DNA of 64,000 nucleotides from Herbidospora galbida (GTDB lineage: Bacteria > Actinomycetota > Actinomycetes > Streptosporangiales > Streptosporangiaceae), in assembly GCF_005233835.1 (NCBI RefSeq), contig NZ_SZQA01000023.1:1-64000 (forward strand). Direction: 5' to 3'. Shown in pieces: positions 10,958-26,334 of this stretch. Below the pieces are notes generated by a model. It saw nothing but the letters and a program-made list of their open reading frames with translations, had not been told where the DNA came from and ran no database searches. Both the position numbers and the translations under genes were made by a program. Position 1 is the first letter of the stretch; every line of letters starts with the position of its first letter.

Positions 10958-11371
10958 TCGAAGAGAGCGGCCCTGGTGGGGGCGCCTCTCCGAGGGCCGG
11001 ACCTGGGCCAGCCGCCGTCGCAGGACCTCGCGCTCGGCCGGATTGTCCGTCCGGGCCAGCGCCGCCTCGTACGCGCCGAGGGCCTCCTCGCTTCGGCCCA
11101 GGCGGCGCAGCAGGTCGGCCCGGACGGCGTGGAACAGGTGGTGGCCGTCGAGGTCCAGGTCGTCGAGGAGGCCCAGCGCCGCCGACGGGCCGTCGACCTC
11201 GGCCACGGCGACGGCGCGGTGCAGGGCCAGCACGGGCGTGGGGGCCAGGGCGATGTGCCGGTCGTAGAGCCGCACCACCTGCCGCCAGTCGGTGGGGGCG
11301 TCACTGTGGACGGCGTTGATCGCCGCCTGGATCTGGTAGGGCCCCGGCCGGTTGCGGCGCAGACAGATGTT
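10952..11371 (-). pseudogene. Remnant of an ECF sigma factor with C-terminal TPR-like domain (ECF42-like)
   Basis: The frame reads CLRRNRPGPYQIQAAINAVH, then WRQVVRLYDRHIALAPTPV, HRAVAVAEVDGPSAAL, DGHHLFHAVRADLLRRLG and ALARTDNPAERE. This is the C-terminal domain of large ECF sigma factors (DUF6596/ECF42 type). The sigma-2 and sigma-4 domains that should precede it are missing: upstream of about 11371 the frame turns into unrelated sequence. No functional sigma factor can be made. It is a decayed fragment. Confidence 0.8.
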
Positions 11372-16131: not shown

Positions 16132-17300
16132 CGCTCGTCGCGAGCCGGTTGGCCGACACGGTCGCCGGGCTGTTCGGAGGCGCGCTGCCCGTCGGGCTGC
16201 GGACCTGGGACGGCGGGTTCGCCGGTCCCGAAGACGCGCCCGTCGTGGTGCTGAGATCGCCCCTGGCGCTGCGGCACCTGCTGTGGGCCCCCGGCGAACT
16301 CGGGCTCGCCAGGGCCTACGTCAGCGGCCATCTCGACGTCGAGGGCGATCTGGCCGACGGGTTCCGGCGGGTGTGGGCCGCCGCCTCCGGCGGTCCCGGG
16401 ATGGCCGAGCTGGCGCGCGGGGCGCGTACCCTCCTCGGGCTCGGCGTCGCGGGCCCGCGCCCGCCGATCCCCCTGAGCGAGGCGCGGCTGCGGGGCCGCC
16501 TGCACACCCGAGGCCGCGACCGCGACGCCATCGCGCACCACTACGACCTGTCCAACGACTTCTACTCGCTGATCCTCGACCCCTCGATGGCCTACTCGTG
16601 CGCCAAGTGGGCGCCCGGCGACGACCTCGCCCGGGCTCAGCGCCGCAAACTCGACCTCGTGTGCGCCAAGCTCGGCCTCCAGCCGGGGATGCGGCACCTC
16701 GACGTCGGCTGCGGCTGGGGCTCGATGGTGCTGCACGCGGCCGAATACGGCGCCGAGTCGGTCGGCGTCACGATCGCCGCCGAGCAGCAGGCCTTCGTCC
16801 GGGCACGCGGCGGCGAGGTGCGGCTGCAGGACTACCGCGACGTCTCCGACGGCCCCTACGACGCGATCTCCTCGATCGAGATGGGCGAACACGTCGGCGA
16901 GGAGAACTACCCCGTCTACGCCTCGACCCTGTTCGGCCTGGTACGTCCCGGCGGCCGCGTCGTCGTCCAGCAGATGTCACGCGGCGCCAACGCCCCCGGC
17001 GGCGGCCCGTTCATCGAGCGCTACATCGCGCCCGACATGCACATGCGCCCCGTCGGCCGGACCGTCGCCATGTTCGAGGAGGCCGGCTTCGAGGTGCTGC
17101 ACGTCGAGGGCATGCGGGAGGACTACGCGAAGACCGTCCGGGCCTGGTACGACACCTTCGAGTCCCACTACGGGGAGGCGGTGGCCCTGGTGGGGGAGGA
17201 GGTCGCCCGGGTGTGGCGGCTCTATCTGGTCGGCGGCGGGCTGGCCTTCGAGTCGGGACGCATGTCCGTCCACCAGATCACCGTGGGCCGCCCTTCGTGA
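16128..17300 (+). CDS. Cyclopropane-fatty-acyl-phospholipid synthase-like SAM methyltransferase, copy 2
   Basis: A 390-aa second member of the family, clearly diverged from copy 1. Residues 1-130 include an SCP2-like lipid-binding segment (LRSPLALRHLLWAPGELGLARAYVSG). Then come HHYDLSNDFYSLILDPSMAYSCA, the SAM site HLDVGCGWGSMVLHAAE, SSIEMGEHVGEENY and VVVQQMSRGANAPGGG. The QQM motif again differs from LLHTI. It is translated from a GTG overlapping the first copy. Two unlike copies in one operon suggest two successive or two different acyl-chain modifications. Confidence 0.92.
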   Translation: MTLVASRLADTVAGLFGGALPVGLRTWDGGFAGPEDAPVVVLRSPLALRHLLWAPGELGLARAYVSGHLDVEGDLADGFRRVWAAASGGPGMAELARGARTLLGLGVAGPRPPIPLSEARLRGRLHTRGRDRDAIAHHYDLSNDFYSLILDPSMAYSCAKWAPGDDLARAQRRKLDLVCAKLGLQPGMRHLDVGCGWGSMVLHAAEYGAESVGVTIAAEQQAFVRARGGEVRLQDYRDVSDGPYDAISSIEMGEHVGEENYPVYASTLFGLVRPGGRVVVQQMSRGANAPGGGPFIERYIAPDMHMRPVGRTVAMFEEAGFEVLHVEGMREDYAKTVRAWYDTFESHYGEAVALVGEEVARVWRLYLVGGGLAFESGRMSVHQITVGRPS

Positions 17301-17333
17301 CAACCCGGCACATGCGTAACGCGTCGAGATGAC

Positions 17334-17732
17334 ATGCCGGAGAACCAAGGGCCCACCAAGCTGCAGATCTGGTTAGGTGTGGGGCTCATCGTCCTGTTCG
17401 TCGCCGCCCTCGTGGTCCTCGTGCTGCTGCGCGACGACCCGCAGTGGGACCGGCTCGTGTTCCTGCTCCAAGGGCTGGAGGCGCTGGTGTTCGCGGCGGC
17501 CGGGGTGCTCTTCGGAACCGCCGTCGGACGGTCGTCGGCCGCCGTGCAGGAGGTCGCCGCGGCGCAGGAACGGGCGTCGGCGGCGGAGACCGACGCGGCC
17601 AACGGGCGGGCGCTGGCGTCGGCGGTGCTGGCGTCGGAGGAGCAGAGCGCGCGGCGGGGCAGCCGGGAGCCGGCGATGGAGGCCGAGTCGGACCTTGCGG
17701 CGCTGGCCCGAAGGCTGTTCCCTAACGCGTGA
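17334..17732 (+). CDS. 132-aa two-TM protein, first gene of CHAT/NTPase locus
   Basis: A hydrophobic helix at about residues 11-31 (IWLGVGLIVLFVAALVVLVLL) and a second at 43-66 (VFLLQGLEALVFAAAGVLFGTAVG) are followed by an Ala/Glu-rich coiled-coil tail (VQEVAAAQERASAAETDAA). It starts 33 bp after the lipid operon and its stop overlaps the CHAT start by one base. The layout, a membrane hairpin with a cytoplasmic coiled coil, suits a membrane anchor for the following CHAT-NTPase. That is inference; I recognise no named family. Confidence 0.8.
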   Translation: MPENQGPTKLQIWLGVGLIVLFVAALVVLVLLRDDPQWDRLVFLLQGLEALVFAAAGVLFGTAVGRSSAAVQEVAAAQERASAAETDAANGRALASAVLASEEQSARRGSREPAMEAESDLAALARRLFPNA

Positions 17733-19513
17733 TGAGTGTCGTCCGGGTCGGCCCGAGGAGCGCGTCCGGTTATCCGGTCGTGCTCGTCGACGACGCCGGA
17801 GAACGGCTGCTCCGGCACATCGACCCGGCCCGGCTGTCCGCCCTCACCGGTGACGCGTCGCCCCAGGGCCGGCGCTCACTGGGCCGGGCGCTCCACGACC
17901 TGGTCCACGACCCGTCGCTGGCCGCCTCCCGGGCCGTCTACCTGGACATCGGCGAGGAGGAGTTACGGGCGCTGCCCTGGGAGTCGATGATCGCTCCCGA
18001 CGGGCGGCGGCCGTTCCTCGCCGAGGGGGCCTGCTGGGCGCGCGGACGACCGCTGCCCGCCACCCGCCCGGATGTGCTGGTGCCGATCCGGCTGCTCATC
18101 GTGCTCGGCAACACCGACGATCCCGCGCTGCTCGCCCGCGAGGAGGCCGACGCGATCAGACGGTCGCTGCGCGCCCGCCACGGCGCCTGGCACGTCGAGG
18201 TGCTCGACCAGCCGACGCCCCGGGAGTTCTTCGAGCGCATGGACGACATGCGGCCGCACGTCCTGCACTTCGTCGGCCACAGCGGGGTCGATCCGCTGGA
18301 AGGGCTGCCGATGCTGGAGTTCAACGGCCCCTCGGGCGCCGTCGGCGTCACCGCCGACCGGATCGTCAACGCGATCACCGAGCCGCCCCGGCTGGTCGTG
18401 CTCAACGCGTGCCGGACCGCCTACGGTCCCTCCGCCTCCATCTGGGAGCTCGCCGACGCCTTCGGCGCCGCCGCCGTGGTGACGATGCGCGGCGACGTCG
18501 CGTCCGCCCCGGCGGTGGTGTTCGCCGAGAACCTCTACGAGTCGCTCGCGTCGGGCGCGACGGTCGGCGAGGCGGTGCGGGCCGCCCGCACGGTCATGTT
18601 CCGGGAGGGCCTGTCCGAATGGGAGGCGCCGTCGCTGGTGGTCGGGCACGCGCCCGAGGACGTCCTGCCGTGGAGTCTCGGCGTCGACCCCGACACGGCG
18701 CTCCACCTGGCCGAACTCTATGCGGGGGTGGCGATGGCGGTCGACCGGGCCGCCGAACGCTGGCGGTTGTGGGGCGGGGTCGACTCCGACGCGCCGCCCT
18801 ACCGGGCGCTGCTCGTCGGTGGCGGGCCCGAGGTGGGCAAGTCGTCGCTCGTCCGCTCGTGCGTGTTCACGTGGCGGCTGCGCGGCTGCACGGCCCTGTA
18901 CGTGGACGCAGGAGCCCTCCGAGACGGGCGCAACGTGCCGTGGCTCGACGTGGTCCGCGCGGTGGCCGACGCCCTGCCGCCGCTGGCCGGGGCCGAGAGG
19001 TTCCGGCACCATCTCGTCCACCTGAGACGGGGCCTGCGGCCTCCTGCGGGGCCCTTCCAGCCGGACGACCGGGGTCCGTGGGAGGCGGCCAACGAGGCGG
19101 AGCCGCAACTGCGCGAGGCGCTGTTCGAAGGGCTGCGCGCGTTGCTGGCCGAGACCGGGCGGGTGACGATCGCCCTCGACCATCTGGCGCTCGTCCCGGA
19201 GCTGGGCGACACCCTGGTGCCCGGCCTGCTCCTGCCGGTCGCGGAGGGCCGGCTGAACGGGGTGTCGGTGATCGTCGCGGAGGACGACGAACGGGTGCTG
19301 GGCGCGTTCGCCGACCGCGCGCAGCGGCTCACGGTCGAGCCGTGGGACCGGGACCGCACCGAGGAGATCTTCCGCGAGTTCGGCGCCCGTGCCAACCGGC
19401 CCTACCAGGGCGGCTGGAAGGACGCCTCGGAGTGGGCCCGGGACAACACGCCGGTGTTCATGCCGTCCCACCTGCACATGTTCCACACCATGATCGCGGC
19501 GGGCCGGCCGTGA
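17732..19513 (+). CDS. CHAT-domain cysteine protease fused to P-loop NTPase
   Basis: A 593-aa protein. Residues 1-310 are a CHAT (caspase HetF-associated with TPR) domain with the His-Cys dyad: His183 in HFVGHSG and Cys227 in LVVLNACRTA, preceded by LPWESMI, and followed by VVTMRGDVASAPAVVFAENLY. From about residue 360 comes a P-loop ATPase with GGGPEVGKSS (Lys370), a candidate Walker B VTIALDH and a later sensor-like region. The ATG at 17732 is used; a GTG one codon earlier is possible. It forms an operon with genes before and after it (overlaps of 1 and 4 bases). CHAT enzymes cleave partner proteins in bacterial conflict or cell-death systems; the substrate here is unknown. Confidence 0.88.
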   Translation: MSVVRVGPRSASGYPVVLVDDAGERLLRHIDPARLSALTGDASPQGRRSLGRALHDLVHDPSLAASRAVYLDIGEEELRALPWESMIAPDGRRPFLAEGACWARGRPLPATRPDVLVPIRLLIVLGNTDDPALLAREEADAIRRSLRARHGAWHVEVLDQPTPREFFERMDDMRPHVLHFVGHSGVDPLEGLPMLEFNGPSGAVGVTADRIVNAITEPPRLVVLNACRTAYGPSASIWELADAFGAAAVVTMRGDVASAPAVVFAENLYESLASGATVGEAVRAARTVMFREGLSEWEAPSLVVGHAPEDVLPWSLGVDPDTALHLAELYAGVAMAVDRAAERWRLWGGVDSDAPPYRALLVGGGPEVGKSSLVRSCVFTWRLRGCTALYVDAGALRDGRNVPWLDVVRAVADALPPLAGAERFRHHLVHLRRGLRPPAGPFQPDDRGPWEAANEAEPQLREALFEGLRALLAETGRVTIALDHLALVPELGDTLVPGLLLPVAEGRLNGVSVIVAEDDERVLGAFADRAQRLTVEPWDRDRTEEIFREFGARANRPYQGGWKDASEWARDNTPVFMPSHLHMFHTMIAAGRP

Positions 19514-22500
19514 GCGCCCAGGTGGAGGCGCTCGCCGCGACCGTGGTCTCGGGCGCCCTGGGGCTGTGGGCCGGCGGCGACGCCGAGGCGCTGGCCCGGA
19601 AGGAGGAGGGCGCGCTGCTGGCGGGCTACGTCCGCCGGCTCGCCGGCCGGATGGCCGAACCGGTGGCCCGCCGGATCGAGTCGGCGCTGCCGAGGGAACC
19701 CGGCCCCGGCCACCTGGCGGCGATCGACGCCGTGCGGGAGTCGCTGCGCGGCCGCCTCTCCGGCGAGGACGCCGACGAGCTCGACCGAGGGCTGCCCGAC
19801 CTCTCCTCCGACCTGCCCGAGCCGATGGCGGAGTTCTACTTCGGGCTCCGCCGGGAGTGCTGCGCCGTCCTGGTCCAGACCGCCCGCTCGCTGCCGCTCC
19901 ACCGTCCCGGCTTGCTGAGGGAGCTGGTCCGGCAGCAGAACACGATCGCCGAACGGCTGACCGATCTCGCGACGTTGCTGTTCGCCGCGTTGCCGTCCGG
20001 GGTCCGGGGCGCGCTGATGCGGTGCGCGCTGCCGGGACGGTTCGACGAGACCCTCTACGACGCGGTGCTGCGCGGCGACGGTCCCTCGCTGGCCGAGATG
20101 GCGGCGACCGGGCGGTTCCGGCGGCTGCCCGGCTCGGGACAGTACCGGCTCGACCCGGCGCTCAGGGAGACGGCGTGGTCGCGGTGGTGGATCGACGAGG
20201 CGCGGGTCATGGGAGAGGGCATCCCCGACGCGATGCGCGAGACGGCCAGGCGGATCGCCGACGAGGTCGACGACGAGCTGGAGGAACTGCGCCTGACCGC
20301 GCTGGTCTCACCCGGCGGGGCCGTCGCGGCCTTCCGCGTGCTCTACCGGCGCGCCGACACGGCCTTCGACCTGGTCGCCTGCCAGGACGCGCTCGACGTC
20401 CTCGCCGCACCCGACCTGATCGGCGTCAGCCCCCTCATCGCGGAGACGCACGCCACCTACCAGGCCCGGCTGGCGGCCCGCACCGCCCACGCCACGGAAT
20501 ACCGCCAGACCGGCCGCTACCTGCACAGAGACGCCCTGGAGCGAGTGCTGACCGGTGACGCCAGGGTGGTCCACCTGCACGCGCCCGGCGGCATGGGCAA
20601 GACGATGCTGCTGCGGTGGTTCGCGGCCCGCCGGTGTCTCACCCAGTGGCCTCACGTGCCGTGCGCGCGGATCGACCTCGACGCCGTCGACCCGGTCAAC
20701 GCGGTCCGTCATCCGTGGCTGGTGTTGCTGGAGATCGCCGCGCAGCTGTCGCCCCAGATCCCCGGCGCGCCCTTCTTCGACCTGCTGCGCGACCACGACC
20801 GGTGGCGGCGGGTGCTGAGCCGCGCCGCCGTGCCCAACACCGCGCTGCTCTCCGAGGTCGAGGCCGCGGCCGCCGACGGGGCCGATGTCACCCGCCGGTT
20901 CTTCGCCACCGACCTGCCCGACCACGTGGTCGTGTTCGACACCCTCGAAGAGATCGTGCTCAGACCCGCCGCCGACCCGCGTCCCTTCGTCGAGACGCTC
21001 GCCCGCCTCTCCGGGCGGGTCGTCCTCTCCGGCCGGTACGACCTGCGCGACCGCCTCCCCGGATTCGCCGACGCCTTCCCCGACGCCGAGATCGTCGAGG
21101 TGCCCCCGTTCGACGACGACCTGGCCGCCCGCTATCTGACCGAACGCCGCGGCCTGACCCGGCCCGACCTGATCGACGCCATGGTCCGCCGCGCGGGCGG
21201 CCTGCCCTTCGCCCTCGCCATGTACGGCGACCTCGCCGAGGCCAACCCGGAGCTGACCGCCCGGGAGGTGGAGGAAGCCCGCGAACCCGCCCTGCTCTAC
21301 TGCCTCGACCGCATCCTGGAACGCATCCCCGACGACCGGCTGCGCTGGCTGCTCCGCTACGCCGTGCTGCCCCGCCACCTCGACGCCGAGTTCGTCACCG
21401 ACGTGCTGTGGCCCCACCTGGAGGCGGGTCTGCGCGACGACAAGGTCCTCGACGACCCGGCCGAGGACGCCCGCCCCGACCGCAAGACCAAGATCTTCCT
21501 CCCCGGCCCGCCACCGCCCGCCCCGGCGGCCCTGTGGGAGGAACTGACGACCTACGCGGGCGCGACCTCCTGGGTCCAGCCCACCGACGACGGCCGGCTC
21601 GTCTTCCACGAGAACCTGCGCGACCCGGTCCGCGACCTCCTCCGCGACCATCCCGTTTTCGCCGTCCTGCACGCGTCGGCCGAGGCCCACTACACCCGCC
21701 GCGCCGCCCGGGAACACTGGGCCCGCTGGTCGGCCGAGGCGGTCTACCACGCCTTCCAGCACCGGGGGACGGCCGCCCTGCCGAGGTGGCGGGCCCTGAT
21801 CACCGAGGCCTGGGACACCGGCCGCGCCGACCACGCCGGGGAACTCGCCGACGACCTGCTGATCTACGCGAAGGACGACGACGTCCGCTACGCGGCCCTC
21901 ATCGAGCAGGCGCGGGCCGCGATCGAGGCCGCCCGGCGCGACCTTTCGCCCGGCGCCTCCGGCGCGCACTGGAACAGGGCCGAGAGCGCCCTCGCGGAGG
22001 CGGGACAACTGGGGGAGCCCTCCCCGATGCACCACGCCCTGACGGCGATGGTGCACCTGGCCCGCGACCGCCACGAGGAGGCCGAGGCGGAACTGGCGAT
22101 GATCGCCGGCGAGGACCTCGACGAGGACACCGCCGCAGAGGTCGACCTCGTCCGGGCCGCCTCCGCCGACCAGGAGGAACTGCGGCAGGTGTACGCGCGG
22201 GCGGAGGAACGGGACGACCTGCGGGGCCTGGAGTTCACGGCCCGTTTGCTGGGCCGGGACATCGCCGTGGGGGGCGGCGACGTCAACGAGGCGGCCCGAT
22301 ACCTGATGGAGTCGGGCGACCTGCCGGAGCTGGCCCGAGTCCTGCTCCAGCGGGGCCGGCCGGGGAGCGCGCTCGACGTGTTCCCGGAGGCACCTCCGCC
22401 CGGGATCGCGACCGGTGGAGAGCGCGACCGGTTGCTCGTCACCGCCGAGGCCATGATCGCGCTCCGCCGCCCGGCCGCCGCCGTCCGCCTGCTGACCGGC

Positions 22501-24522
22501 CGGATCTCCACCGATCACGCCTCGTCGGCGATCGTGATGGCCCGCGCCCTGGGCGACCTGATGGAGTACGAGGTCGCGCTCGACGCCCTCACGCACGCCC
22601 GCCGCGCCGCCACGCTGGGGGCCGACCGCAAGGCCCTCACCCGGGAGACGGCGCGGCTCCACCTCGACGTGGCCGGAGACGTCGTGGCCGCCGAACGGAT
22701 GCTCGGCGAGATCCTCGACGACGTCCTGCACCCCGACCCGCTCTGGGCGGACATCCGGCTCGCCCAGGCCAGGGACGACGACGCGGTCTCCATCGCCTGG
22801 CGGACGGCCAAGGGATCGTCCGACCCCGTGGCCCAGGCGAAGGCGGCCGTGACCGGGCTCCAGGTCGGCCAGCCCATGGGTGGCCGGCTCATTCGGTACG
22901 TCCGGCTGATCGACGACCTCGGCCTCCGCCTCGAATCGCTACGGGAGCTGCGGAAATGCCGTCTTCCCGTGGATCTGTCGGAGGCGGTCCTCGATCCGTG
23001 GCTGGCCGAGCGAGCCGAGTGGCAGCGGGAGGACCGGGCCTGCCTCGACCTGCTCGCGGTGGAGGTGGCGCGCGTGGCCGGTCGCTCAGCGGACGCCGCC
23101 GTGCTGCTCGACGAAGCGGTCTTCGGCCTCGCGAGCTCCGACGTCGTCGCGTGGCTCGACTGGATCCGGGCGAAGAACCGCATCGGGCCCGCGATCGCCG
23201 GTGAGTGGGAACCCCCGGAGATCGAGGGCGGCCCGGACCTGACGGGCGCCTTCCTCGTCGAACTCGCCCGGCGCCGCCTGCCCGTCGACCCGGAGTGGAA
23301 GACGTCCTCGCGGCTCGACCGGGCCGGGGAACTCATGGGCGACCGTCCCATGCGCTGGCACGGCACGCTCTGGCAGACCCGTGCCGATCTCGCCGCCTCG
23401 CAGGGCCTGCCCGACCGCGAACACCGGCTGCGCGCGATGTCGGTGTGGCGGGACCTGGGACAAGTCGCAGAACTCCAGGCGACCCCACCCACCCCTACCG
23501 AGACCATCGCCTACGGACCCCCGACCACCCACAGCCCGGACCTCGAGGCCGACGACGAAGCCCGATCGGACTCGGCCGCTGCCGACTCGGACGGGCTGGA
23601 CTGGCACCGGTTCGATGACGAGTCGCCGGATCACGAACCAGAAATCGTCGTGCCCCTCGGCGGGCTTCAGCCCGTCGGCGATGACTGGACGGTTCACGAG
23701 GCCACGAACGGCCTGGGCGACCGGTTGCTCCCCGGGCTCGAGGGCCGGCTGGAGGACTCCCCGGAACCCCTCGACGTCCGCCTGGACGGCTACGCCGGTG
23801 GCGCGCCGTGGGAACTGCTCGGCTGGGGCGGCCGCACGCTGGGCCGCCATCCCCGAGTCAGGTGCGTCTATCGAACGCCGCGCGGGCTCGTGCCGGTCGA
23901 GGAGCCGCCGGGTCGCCGGGAACCGGTCGTACACGTCATCGAACCTGATCTGGTGCTTGCGGCCAGGACGCGGGGGCTGCCCGGTTCGCTGAAGGTCGCC
24001 GAGCTCTACCGGAACCGTGACCTCCCGGCCGAATCCCGGACTCCGCTGGAGGCGCTCGGCCGGCGCGAGATCGGCGTGCTCCACGTCGCCGGCGTCATGG
24101 ACACCGCCAGGGGCGTCCCGGCGCTGTCCTTCCTCGGCGACGACGACGGGATCGAGCCCGACGCCCTGCACGAGGTGCTCCGGCGGCTGCGCGGCAACCC
24201 GCCTCTCGTCGTGCTCGACGTCCTGGCCCCGGCCAACCGCGCCGAGTTCCCCCGGCAACTCTCCCTCCGCAACCGGTTCGCCCAGGAGATCGTGCGCGTC
24301 ACGTTTCCCGTCACCGTCCTGGCCATCGGCCCCGCCCCCGGCCTGACCCGTTCGGTGGCGATCACCGACGTGGCCTTCGCCGTGTCGGCGGGGTCGTCGA
24401 CGCCCGGACTGTGGCAGCGGATCCAGAGCCACGAGATCGCCTCGGAGGACGACGCCTACGCCTTCGCGGCCACGGCGCTGTTCTCCAACGTGCGCCCCGC
24501 CGGCATGCCCGGGTTCCGATGA
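19510..24522 (+). CDS. 1670-aa STAND-like NTPase with TPR-like repeats and degenerate C-terminal CHAT domain
   Basis: The GTG at 19510 overlaps the CHAT gene stop. Residues 1-350 are helical and unrecognised. The NTPase has Walker A LHAPGGMGKT (Lys364), Walker B VVVFD (Asp477) and the STAND hallmark GGLP at 563-566. A long Ala/Leu/Arg-rich helical array, probably TPR-like, spans about 700-1260. An acidic low-complexity linker sits near 1340-1380. The last 280 residues resemble CHAT (APWELLGWG, VLHVAGVMD with His1525), but the Cys position of LVVLNAC reads LVVLDVL, giving Leu1572, so protease activity should be lost. It is probably a sensor or scaffold for the active CHAT protein. Note the lack of any frameshift over 5 kb. 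Confidence 0.85.
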   Translation: MSAQVEALAATVVSGALGLWAGGDAEALARKEEGALLAGYVRRLAGRMAEPVARRIESALPREPGPGHLAAIDAVRESLRGRLSGEDADELDRGLPDLSSDLPEPMAEFYFGLRRECCAVLVQTARSLPLHRPGLLRELVRQQNTIAERLTDLATLLFAALPSGVRGALMRCALPGRFDETLYDAVLRGDGPSLAEMAATGRFRRLPGSGQYRLDPALRETAWSRWWIDEARVMGEGIPDAMRETARRIADEVDDELEELRLTALVSPGGAVAAFRVLYRRADTAFDLVACQDALDVLAAPDLIGVSPLIAETHATYQARLAARTAHATEYRQTGRYLHRDALERVLTGDARVVHLHAPGGMGKTMLLRWFAARRCLTQWPHVPCARIDLDAVDPVNAVRHPWLVLLEIAAQLSPQIPGAPFFDLLRDHDRWRRVLSRAAVPNTALLSEVEAAAADGADVTRRFFATDLPDHVVVFDTLEEIVLRPAADPRPFVETLARLSGRVVLSGRYDLRDRLPGFADAFPDAEIVEVPPFDDDLAARYLTERRGLTRPDLIDAMVRRAGGLPFALAMYGDLAEANPELTAREVEEAREPALLYCLDRILERIPDDRLRWLLRYAVLPRHLDAEFVTDVLWPHLEAGLRDDKVLDDPAEDARPDRKTKIFLPGPPPPAPAALWEELTTYAGATSWVQPTDDGRLVFHENLRDPVRDLLRDHPVFAVLHASAEAHYTRRAAREHWARWSAEAVYHAFQHRGTAALPRWRALITEAWDTGRADHAGELADDLLIYAKDDDVRYAALIEQARAAIEAARRDLSPGASGAHWNRAESALAEAGQLGEPSPMHHALTAMVHLARDRHEEAEAELAMIAGEDLDEDTAAEVDLVRAASADQEELRQVYARAEERDDLRGLEFTARLLGRDIAVGGGDVNEAARYLMESGDLPELARVLLQRGRPGSALDVFPEAPPPGIATGGERDRLLVTAEAMIALRRPAAAVRLLTGRISTDHASSAIVMARALGDLMEYEVALDALTHARRAATLGADRKALTRETARLHLDVAGDVVAAERMLGEILDDVLHPDPLWADIRLAQARDDDAVSIAWRTAKGSSDPVAQAKAAVTGLQVGQPMGGRLIRYVRLIDDLGLRLESLRELRKCRLPVDLSEAVLDPWLAERAEWQREDRACLDLLAVEVARVAGRSADAAVLLDEAVFGLASSDVVAWLDWIRAKNRIGPAIAGEWEPPEIEGGPDLTGAFLVELARRRLPVDPEWKTSSRLDRAGELMGDRPMRWHGTLWQTRADLAASQGLPDREHRLRAMSVWRDLGQVAELQATPPTPTETIAYGPPTTHSPDLEADDEARSDSAAADSDGLDWHRFDDESPDHEPEIVVPLGGLQPVGDDWTVHEATNGLGDRLLPGLEGRLEDSPEPLDVRLDGYAGGAPWELLGWGGRTLGRHPRVRCVYRTPRGLVPVEEPPGRREPVVHVIEPDLVLAARTRGLPGSLKVAELYRNRDLPAESRTPLEALGRREIGVLHVAGVMDTARGVPALSFLGDDDGIEPDALHEVLRRLRGNPPLVVLDVLAPANRAEFPRQLSLRNRFAQEIVRVTFPVTVLAIGPAPGLTRSVAITDVAFAVSAGSSTPGLWQRIQSHEIASEDDAYAFAATALFSNVRPAGMPGFR

Positions 24523-25679
24523 CCCGCCGCGCGATCGAACTGCACGCCAAGATCGCCGGTCTGGAGGCCGAACTCGCCGCCTGGCGCTCGCTGTCGGCCC
24601 CGGGCGCCCGGCTGGAGAAGCACCACACCCAGATCGGCGCCATCACCGCCGCCCTCCAGGTCGCCGTCGACCACCTCACCGCCAGGGCGGACTCCGGCGA
24701 TCCGTGGACGGCGACGGAACACCTCCTGATCCGCACCCACGACGTTCTCGACTACTTCCGCGCCAAGTTCGCCCTCCGCCTGGCCGACGTCTTCGCCGAC
24801 TACCTGACGGTCGCCGACGAGCTCGCCTGGGAGTGCTACGAACCGGTCCGGACGTACGCCCCCCGGCGGAAGGAACCCCCGCTCGTCTTCCTGGACCGGT
24901 CGGCGGAACCGTTCTCCATCGCCCGTGGCGCCGACTACGCCACCGAGCTGATCGCGAAACCTCCGGGCAGCCTCCGCCGGGTCGTGGAGCGCCTCCCCGT
25001 CCCGCTGATCGGCGTCCCGTGGTTCCACCTCCGCCATCTCCCCGACGCCCTGGTCATCGCCCACGAAGTGGGTCACCTGGTCGAAACCGACCTCGACCTG
25101 ACCCCGACGCTCCAGACGTCGATCGCCGGAGCACGCCCCGAATGGCGGCGCTGGCTCGGAGAGGTCTTCGCCGACGTGTACGCAGCCCTCGCCACCGGAC
25201 CCGGCTACCTGAGCGCCCTGTCCGACTTCCTCGACACCGGATCGGGCGGCACCGGCGCGGGGGCGTACCCGCCTCCGGAGACCCGCCTCGACGTGGTTCG
25301 AGCGGTCTTGGACGGCGGCCGCGCGACGGAGGCCGCAGAGGTGGCGGCGGCCCTGGTGGCGGGCCCCTATCCCCAACTGGGCGGCCGCCGCCTCGACGAG
25401 ATCCTCACCTTCGACCGCGACCTGGCCGACCGCCAGGCGAGCGCGCTGCTCCTGCGCATGGCTCCCGACCCCCGGTCGAACGTGCGCACCCTGCTCTCCT
25501 CGGCCGCCCTGGCCTTCGCCCGCGACCCCGAGACGTACCAGAAAGCCGGCACGACGGACCGTGTCGTCCACGCCGCGCACCGGAAGATCACGGCCGGAGT
25601 CCGCGCCGCCACGACGCCGCAGGCGGCGGCGGAACGCGGCCGCGAAGCCGGCGAGGCCATCCTCGGCCTGCTCCTCTGA
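24519..25679 (+). CDS. HExxH metallopeptidase-like protein, last gene of CHAT/NTPase locus
   Basis: A 386-aa protein starting at an ATG overlapping the previous stop (ATGA). The N-terminal 110 residues are a helical, probably coiled-coil segment (HAKIAGLEAELAAW). The core has LVIAHEVGHLVE with His182, Glu183 and His186, followed about 30 residues later by GEVFADVYAAL, where Glu215 or Asp219 could be the third zinc ligand (gluzincin or aspzincin pattern). The C-terminal 150 residues are helical. No signal peptide or TM is seen, so it is cytoplasmic. Presumably it is the effector, or a second protease, of the four-gene locus. I do not recognise a named peptidase family. Confidence 0.82.
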   Translation: MTRRAIELHAKIAGLEAELAAWRSLSAPGARLEKHHTQIGAITAALQVAVDHLTARADSGDPWTATEHLLIRTHDVLDYFRAKFALRLADVFADYLTVADELAWECYEPVRTYAPRRKEPPLVFLDRSAEPFSIARGADYATELIAKPPGSLRRVVERLPVPLIGVPWFHLRHLPDALVIAHEVGHLVETDLDLTPTLQTSIAGARPEWRRWLGEVFADVYAALATGPGYLSALSDFLDTGSGGTGAGAYPPPETRLDVVRAVLDGGRATEAAEVAAALVAGPYPQLGGRRLDEILTFDRDLADRQASALLLRMAPDPRSNVRTLLSSAALAFARDPETYQKAGTTDRVVHAAHRKITAGVRAATTPQAAAERGREAGEAILGLLL

Positions 25680-25698
25680 CCAGAACAGGGGGCCTGCT

Positions 25699-26334
25699 TC
25701 ACATGCCCAGCCGGGCCCCCATCAGCTTCTCCACCGCCCACGGCTCCCCGTCGAGCGCCACCCGCGCGTGGTCCTGGCGGCCGAACGCGAACAGCAGCAG
25801 CTCCTGTGCGGGCCCGGTGACCACCACGGCCGGGTCGGACATCTTCGCCCCCGCCTTCTGGCCCGTTCCCGCCCGGCGCAGCACCACGCCCACGGGCGAC
25901 TTGCGGAAGAACACCCGGGCTCCGGCGGCGACCCGCTTCCACAGCAGGTCGTCGAGGTCGGCGGGGAGTTCGCGGGGTTCCCAGCCCGCCTGGGCGCGGC
26001 GCACGTCTTCGTGGTGGACGAAGAACTCGATCGTGTTCACCGCCGAGTCGAGGCCGGGGATCAGGCCGTAGGGCGTCCAGCGGGGCGGGCCCTGGCGGAC
26101 TTCGTTCACCACTTCCGCGTAGGGGCGGGCCCGGACCTGCTCCTGGACGTTGCGCGTGTAGGGCGCCAGGAACTTCACCGCTATCCCGGCGGCGGCGTCG
26201 ATGCGCCGTTCCCGGACGACGAGGTGGGCGGCGAGGTCGGCGGTCTCCCACCCCTCGCACAGGGTGGGGGCGAACGGGCCCAGATCGTCGAGAAGTTCGG
26301 TGATGGCGGCACGTTCCGCGCGGGCGTAGCTCAT
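25699..26334 (-). CDS. TIGR03085-type putative metal-binding protein (DinB/mycothiol maleylpyruvate isomerase fold)
   Basis: A 211-aa actinobacterial protein. The four-helix DinB-like N-terminus has the motif TLCEGWETADLAAHLVVRER, and NTIEFFVHHEDVRRA carries the further His ligands. The C-terminal part includes VVVTGPAQELLLFAFGR, typical of the group whose members use mycothiol in some cases. The substrate is unknown. The start ATG lies 6 bases after a minus-strand TAGGGT (-10), suggesting a leaderless transcript. Confidence 0.88.
   Translation of the reverse strand: MSYARAERAAITELLDDLGPFAPTLCEGWETADLAAHLVVRERRIDAAAGIAVKFLAPYTRNVQEQVRARPYAEVVNEVRQGPPRWTPYGLIPGLDSAVNTIEFFVHHEDVRRAQAGWEPRELPADLDDLLWKRVAAGARVFFRKSPVGVVLRRAGTGQKAGAKMSDPAVVVTGPAQELLLFAFGRQDHARVALDGEPWAVEKLMGARLGM

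Follow-up and report, generated by a model that had tools for sequence, protein, structure and literature searches.

A four-gene locus of Herbidospora galbida as a candidate inflammasome-like CHAT protease switch with a replaceable membrane effector

What might four genes do together when they overlap from end to end and encode a small predicted membrane protein, a CHAT protease fused to an NTPase, a very long STAND-like NTPase and a putative zinc metallopeptidase? The question is raised by a locus in the first 64,000 nucleotides of contig NZ_SZQA01000023.1 of Herbidospora galbida (the window), which a preliminary description of this DNA had regarded as a candidate conflict or cell-death system. 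We propose, with about an even chance of being right, a protease switch that resembles an inflammasome and whose membrane effector can be replaced.

The four genes (g1–g4, Table 1) are intact, lie on the same strand between 17334 and 25679, and overlap by 1, 4 and 4 bases. These overlaps agree with the preliminary description, and the residues it had named (His183, Cys227 and P-loop Lys370 of g2, GGLP of g3, HEVGH of g4) were all found in place. The g2 gene starts with an ATG, with a GTG at 17729 as a possible alternative, and g3 starts with a GTG. Purifying selection was seen on all four genes when compared with three Herbidospora orthologues (dN/dS 0.11–0.48, and 0.11–0.24 for g1), one of which, G150, has no start codon at the g2 start set here. 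Since the gene order recurs across genomes, the genes evolve together and selection is purifying, g1–g4 are not a chance cluster; this possibility and that of an annotation artefact were rejected.

Of 150 family genomes searched with g4, 12 had a match. The full g1-g2-g3-g4 order was found in two further Herbidospora genomes, two Acrocarpospora genomes and one genome of a third genus, and more distant g4 relatives adjoin other CHAT/NTPase genes. Scanning of named genomes with an alignment of 11 g4 sequences gave 45 loci, which were sorted by our own gene calls and by profiles built from the first loci. In 19 of these (type A, L036–L054; g4 of L047 detected by tblastn only) g2, g3 and g4 follow in order. 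Type A loci span Actinomycetota, Acidobacteriota and Chloroflexota, including one Acidobacteria and one Anaerolinea metagenome-assembled genome. The distance matrices of g2, g3 and g4 from 19 type A copies, L047 not being among them, correlate at 0.96–0.97, which none of 2000 permutations reached. The preliminary description had made its reading depend on the genes occurring together elsewhere, and because they do so across genomes, it stands on this point. In a phylum-wide sample g4 was found in 2 of 396 genomes, that of the window included, with four candidates scored per genome.

In a second group (type B, 15/45; L055–L064, L067–L069, L075 and L076) g4 lies directly before g2; g4 of L055 and L068 was detected by tblastn only, and L076 is cut by a contig end. 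In 13 of the 15 a large open reading frame comes next; its profile aligns with the g3 NTPase at prob 99.9 and E 5.8e-34. Its end may be a pseudo-CHAT (a CHAT homologue without catalytic residues), on a weak match (prob 28, E 6.4e-4). The corresponding NTPase protein of Herbidospora cretacea (L060:12927-17960) carries WD40 repeats (E 4e-14) where g3 of the window has weakly TPR-like ones, which would be a swap of the proposed sensor. Eight Chloroflexota loci (type C, L071–L074 and L077–L080) have a g4 without a CHAT match, in all eight cases convergent with a STAND gene; the one checked by Pfam is of the BTAD-NB-ARC-TPR type. L065, L066 and L070 were too short to classify.

The g2 protein has a CHAT domain according to Pfam (PF12770, E 1.4e-22), and AAA_16 was also matched, below its cut-off. 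The catalytic His is conserved in 34/34 and the catalytic Cys in 33/33 of the aligned sequences that have the column, counted over the readable type A and type B copies. The CHAT domain of g2 thus looks active, as had been claimed from the single sequence. The P-loop reads GK[ST] in 18 of 20 type A sequences, window counted (GKG in L046 and GRT in L051), and in none of the 14 readable type B sequences.

The g3 protein ends in a domain homologous to the CHAT domain of g2 (hhalign prob 97.3, E 1.6e-11), so the CHAT-like tail noticed earlier was recovered. Its catalytic columns hold neither His nor Cys in any of 20 aligned sequences, and on this alignment the tail is a true pseudo-CHAT, a predicted dead partner domain. 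The NTPase of g3 is likewise homologous to that of g2 (hhalign prob 97.3, E 2.5e-11). Its P-loop reads GK[TS] in 20/20 sequences, and a GxP-like motif, GGLP at residues 563–566 in the window, is present in part of them. AAA_16 was matched below cut-off, and the NACHT and AP-ATPase models of Pfam were not reached in g3 of the window. Between NTPase and tail lies the proposed sensor. For the long TPR-like array of the preliminary description, the window copy gave only an ANAPC3 match at residues 973–1028 (E 0.0014), below cut-off. Among the four Herbidospora copies, identity is 0.53–0.69 at residues 901–1300 as against 0.80–0.86 in the NTPase; the NTPase is the most conserved part of g3, and the N-terminus and the repeats are the most variable.

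The N-terminus of g3 matches PF22733 (NNH1, NACHT N-terminal helical domain 1) above cut-off, at E 1.4e-9. The Acrocarpospora g3, and also that of the NEAU-GS5 locus, begins to align only at about residue 151. The NNH1 of g3 also occurs in other Herbidospora proteins (L030, L034) with 47–50% identity, which suggests exchange of this domain between NLR-like proteins within the genus. A literature search for the domain gave unrelated matches only.

In g4 the residues H182, E183, H186, E215, F217, A218 and D219 of the zinc site are invariant in 37/37 aligned relatives, and the protein combines HExxH with a downstream acidic ligand, E215, as zincins do. The HExxH protein of the preliminary description is thereby upheld, and g4 looks catalytically active. 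No named family came above cut-off (YpfJ/PF04228, M48 and the FxSxx peptidase were sought), and no relative in PDB was found by sequence; the best NCBIfam match of the g4 relatives was the YpfJ model in 11/37, far below cut-off. Because the catalytic residues are kept in g2 and g4 and lost in g3, the locus would combine two active enzymes with one dead domain. In Acrocarpospora pleiomorpha (L017/L040) the first ~45 residues of g4 lie in another frame, pointing to a frameshift or a sequencing error.

Gene 1 behaves differently from this core. A hydropathy scan of g1 relatives, including copies 93% identical, showed two hydrophobic helices, so that of the two-transmembrane (two-TM) coiled-coil protein proposed earlier it is the two TM helices that find support. 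The motifs R..WDRL between the helices and GLEA.VFA..G.LFG in helix 2 are conserved in 6/6 aligned copies, and g1 has no Pfam match above cut-off. A two-TM g1 relative lies upstream of g2 in 7 of the 19 type A loci (L036–L041 and L051). In eight others (L043, L044, L047–L050, L052 and L054) the slot is taken by an unrelated family of ~270 amino acids (aa); the members examined match nothing in Pfam or PADLOC. One locus, L046 from Geodermatophilus saharensis, has a bacterial gasdermin (bGSDM) gene, placed downstream of g4 and not in the upstream slot. No membrane candidate was recognised in the remaining three (L042, L045 and L053); a calcineurin-like phosphoesterase is encoded upstream in L045, and a matrixin downstream in L053. 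Because gene 1 varies between loci while g4 stays constant, gene 1 is the exchanged part and hence likely the effector, with g4 in the constant core. The preliminary description had made g4 effector or substrate and assigned no role to gene 1; g4 as effector is kept here only as a rival. A second, short CHAT-like gene was seen upstream of the slot gene in a Streptomyces locus (L052:29-1042).

The gasdermin of L046 is 248–282 aa long and overlaps g4 by 14 bases if read from the ATG at 11352, the start chosen here. It matches the bGSDM model of PADLOC (E 3.1e-49) and the PDB entries 7n51 (E 5.3e-12) and 8sl0 (E 6.1e-12). None of the 296 actinobacterial genomes that were sampled, and none of 14 controls, had a canonical bGSDM by a search that recovers the Geodermatophilus gasdermin, and the L046 protein occurs in 1 of 26 Geodermatophilus genomes; chance adjacency is therefore unlikely. 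An integrase-like protein (named by eye) is encoded upstream of this locus (L046:1672-2271) and hints at mobility.

The ~270-aa slot family is probably linked to gasdermins, judging from profiles. With 21 members, the profile-profile comparison gave E 1.1e-4 over 190 colinear columns, and gasdermins, mostly close relatives of each other, took ranks 1, 2, 3, 5, 7, 8 and 9 of 359. The score of 40.2 exceeds those of all 200 column shuffles, the highest of which gave 21.7. The family was found in 14/333 Streptomyces genomes and in 0/396 genomes of the phylum-wide sample, a search that had no positive control. Fifteen Streptomyces regions with the family were examined. A CHAT-like gene lies nearby in 10/15 by direct match, and the complete slot-g2-g3-g4 set was called in four. 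In L159 and L161 the core genes are present and the slot gene was missed by the gene caller; in L166, L167, L168 and L170 the profile picks out another CHAT-like protein; comparing profile with sequence brings one out in L164 and L165 (prob 83 and 92), where His and Cys motifs can be seen; L169 has no clear CHAT-like protein. L162 (9610-12095) and L163 (9698-11868) hold only a slot-family gene followed by g4, with no CHAT match. The slot protein of L162 has a long proline-rich tail.

In Chloroflexota bGSDM was found in 17/350 genomes. In 15 of the 16 regions taken from these (the 17th was left out) a gene a short way upstream matches the CHAT profile of g2; the exception, L137, is a short contig. 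Amidase-like and FtsZ-like genes (named by eye) surround the CHAT gene. This agrees with passages of a review in which bGSDMs are flanked and cleaved by caspase-like proteases, CHAT included (PMC9612521); for fungi, CHAT proteases are said to go with about 17% of gasdermin-linked proteases (PMC10989679). The linked gasdermin and gasdermin-like genes add weight to the candidate conflict or cell-death system of the preliminary description.

Four of seven Herbidospora genomes have the locus of the window as a cassette, with a cyclopropane-synthase-like gene on one side and a 211-aa gene on the other (names given by eye). In the three genomes without it (G033, G083 and G149) the same flanking genes lie 43, 440 and about 570 bases apart, and no convincing remnant of the cassette was seen. 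Homology between G033 and the window ends at window position 17300 and picks up again at 25699, the gap in G033 being filled by 36 unrelated bases. Because the block is present or absent between the same two flanking genes, the cassette is a removable unit whose site is stable. Similar neighbours are kept in A. pleiomorpha. Herbidospora cretacea lacks the cassette at this site and has its type B locus elsewhere.

PADLOC analysis of 119 of the 128 proteins flanking type A loci L039–L054 (nine short genes left out; matches up to 1e-10 counted) showed few defence genes apart from gasdermin: bGSDM 1, mad3 5, mad2 3, mad8 3, CARF_ADA 1, four IetA models 1 each, MzaA 1 and TRIP13 1. Of 158 genes that flank type B and type C loci, 103 were scanned, all from type B; they gave some restriction-modification, Dnd/Ssp and BREX-type matches, and no bGSDM among the 25 of 34 families listed. 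No clear pattern of a defence island emerged from either scan. The preliminary description had proposed a check for phage islands; a link to phage or defence islands was not borne out, as the cassette has one fixed site in Herbidospora, between housekeeping genes, and type A loci have few defence neighbours.

From these features we infer a course that would lead from complex formation through activation and cleavage of g1 to membrane damage and cell death, possibly in defence against phages. The g3 protein would be the sensor, with repeats that bind a trigger and a STAND-like NTPase that then changes state. Because there are two homologous domain pairs (CHAT/pseudo-CHAT and NTPase/NTPase), a mixed complex of g2 and g3 is probable. 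Within it the g3 pseudo-CHAT would position the live CHAT domain of g2 and switch it on. The activated CHAT would cut its targets, while g4, as a second core protease, might process the effector or be itself switched on by CHAT. Once released, the two-TM g1 protein would permeabilise the membrane, and the cell would be killed or arrested. A bolder version, which we hold tentatively and at somewhat under an even chance, is that such loci form a new class of prokaryotic inflammasome. In this class a pseudo-CHAT STAND protein would license a separate CHAT protease, the zinc peptidase would be the second core protease, and at least three executioners would be interchangeable: the two-TM killer, a divergent gasdermin family in Streptomyces, Actinoplanes and Frankia, and the canonical gasdermin of Geodermatophilus.

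Several observations weigh against the proposed protease switch and its exchangeable effector. The chromosomal site is fixed and defence neighbours are few. The g1 protein has no recognised homologue of known function, its pore formation and cleavage being what we infer. The window has no gasdermin, with no PADLOC bGSDM match in g1–g4 or in the window's genome, and canonical bGSDM occurs in only 1 of the 22 genomes that bear such loci. The slot-gasdermin comparison falls to E 0.0058 without the Geodermatophilus sequence; with the first eight slot members it was not significant (E 0.04) and the rank test was mixed. In reverse, a gasdermin profile against single slot proteins gave no significance and a best rank of 9/362, and the slot and gasdermin profiles match no known PDB gasdermin. 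Finally, the 16 Chloroflexota bGSDM regions have no g4 or g3-type match.

The Lit protease destroys an essential host protein, and g4 might do likewise after activation by the CHAT/STAND pair, with g1 only a membrane anchor. This would fit a g4 that is common to types A, B and C with invariant zinc residues, that in type C adjoins a STAND gene without a CHAT match, and that in two Streptomyces loci is accompanied by a slot-family gene only. Effectors usually vary, however, and here gene 1 varies and g4 does not; a g4 beside a slot gene without CHAT suits a processing enzyme equally well, and no relation of g4 to Lit-type or other families reached cut-off. We consider g4 an unlikely executioner. 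A similarly low probability is given to a developmental or stress-signalling protease module of filamentous bacteria, instead of an immune one, in which g3 would sense an internal state and CHAT would remodel the membrane protein g1 without any death. Many of the hosts are filamentous actinobacteria, the neighbours are kept in Herbidospora and A. pleiomorpha with few defence genes nearby, and a weak HetF match (E 0.032) was found; against it stand the absence of the whole block from 3/7 Herbidospora genomes, a g4 match in 12/150 family genomes, the scatter across phyla and the gasdermin links. Very improbable, in our view, is peptide processing as in FxSxx-COOH loci, which hold a zincin, a short precursor and a STAND-TPR protein; g1 would then be the precursor and g4 the peptidase that processes it. 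Zincins are coupled to AP-ATPase-TPR proteins in actinobacteria according to part of PMC7159879, but none of the 37 g4 relatives matches such a family (NCBIfam, E 0.1 or better), g1 has two TM helices and the slot often holds a ~270-aa globular protein.

Scans of g1–g4 with NCBIfam, PADLOC and PHROGs gave no convincing match. With PADLOC, g1, g3 and g4 had no match at E 1 and g2 had weak ones (SAVED_CHAT 3.9e-4, BovA 2.2e-3, mad8 0.053), so that no model of a known defence system fits. The loci resemble bGSDM operons in that a protease adjoins a membrane executioner, in that multigene forms have NLR-type genes, and in the true bGSDM of L046; CHAT and Peptidase U49 genes are named for such operons in a figure legend (Fig 2 of PMC9612521). 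Unlike them, the window has a two-TM protein as executioner candidate and no gasdermin. Its active-looking CHAT is paired with a STAND protein, encoded separately, that bears the pseudo-CHAT, and with a zinc peptidase from a family not named before. Avs and bNACHT proteins share the STAND-like NTPase with C-terminal repeats and the NNH1 domain, and the change from TPR-like to WD40 repeats in type B also recalls them (antiviral STAND logic is treated in passages of PMC10907252), but no effector domain was recognised on g3, which has no PADLOC match, and enzyme and effector are separate genes.

A constant NTPase/peptidase core with exchangeable effectors is known from conflict systems, going by parts of PMC7159879 and PMC8195603. 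EACC1-caspase and other ternary conflict systems have it too, together with membrane association (passages of PMC7159879), whereas no EACC1, vWA or MoxR gene was recognised in g1–g4 and the core here includes a zinc peptidase. With FxSxx-COOH systems the locus shares a zincin peptidase coupled to a STAND-TPR protein in actinobacteria (again in part of PMC7159879). It differs from them in that g4 matches none of their models and in having a CHAT protease. In Craspase (type III-E CRISPR) the CHAT protease, TPR-CHAT, is switched by its partner, and control of CHAT by a partner is what we propose for the window. PADLOC, the only search made for them, matched no gRAMP or CRISPR parts in g1–g4. No description of the g1–g4 set was found in the open-access literature searched; subscription papers and preprints were not covered, so absence is not proven.

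If the proposal is true, the logic of the animal inflammasome (sensor NTPase, dead/live caspase-like pair, protease and pore) would exist in a compact bacterial operon with a swappable pore part, and the known executioners would be joined by two candidates, one a gasdermin family and the other not a gasdermin. The locus offers defined genes for asking how a pseudo-enzyme switches on a CHAT protease, and defines a zinc peptidase family that accompanies STAND NTPases in Actinomycetota and Chloroflexota.

Table 1. Positions in the window of the cassette, its four genes and the sites discussed in the text.
Feature	Position	Strand	Description
Cassette limits	17301..25698		Missing as one block from three of seven Herbidospora genomes
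g1	17334..17732	+	132 aa; two TM helices predicted; occupies the variable slot; proposed as membrane effector
g2	17732..19513	+	593 aa; CHAT protease fused to P-loop NTPase
g2 His183	18278..18280	+	Predicted catalytic residue
g2 Cys227	18410..18412	+	Predicted catalytic residue
g2 Lys370	18839..18841	+	P-loop
g3	19510..24522	+	1670 aa; STAND-like NTPase, repeats, pseudo-CHAT tail; proposed sensor/switch
g3 NNH1	19531..19968	+	Residues 8-153
g3 NTPase core	20521..21333	+	P-loop GGMGKT and GGLP
g3 repeat region	21607..23499	+	Weakly TPR-like; proposed sensor
g3 pseudo-CHAT tail	23707..24519	+	About residues 1400-1670
g4	24519..25679	+	386 aa; zinc metallopeptidase-like
g4 HEVGH motif	25062..25076	+	Residues 182-186
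g4 EVFAD motif	25161..25175	+	Putative third zinc ligand region

A further conserved gene of ~320 aa, g5, is often the last in type B loci (L055–L069, e.g. L056:18143-19144) and belongs to no recognised family. No relative was found in Pfam (two members), PADLOC (one member) or PDB, and profile comparison linked g5 neither with gasdermins nor with the slot family. Three Frankia type B loci have a partial g5 relative on the opposite strand. In the window itself, a partial repeat-like open reading frame on the minus strand (2-205) runs off the window start, which is the contig end.

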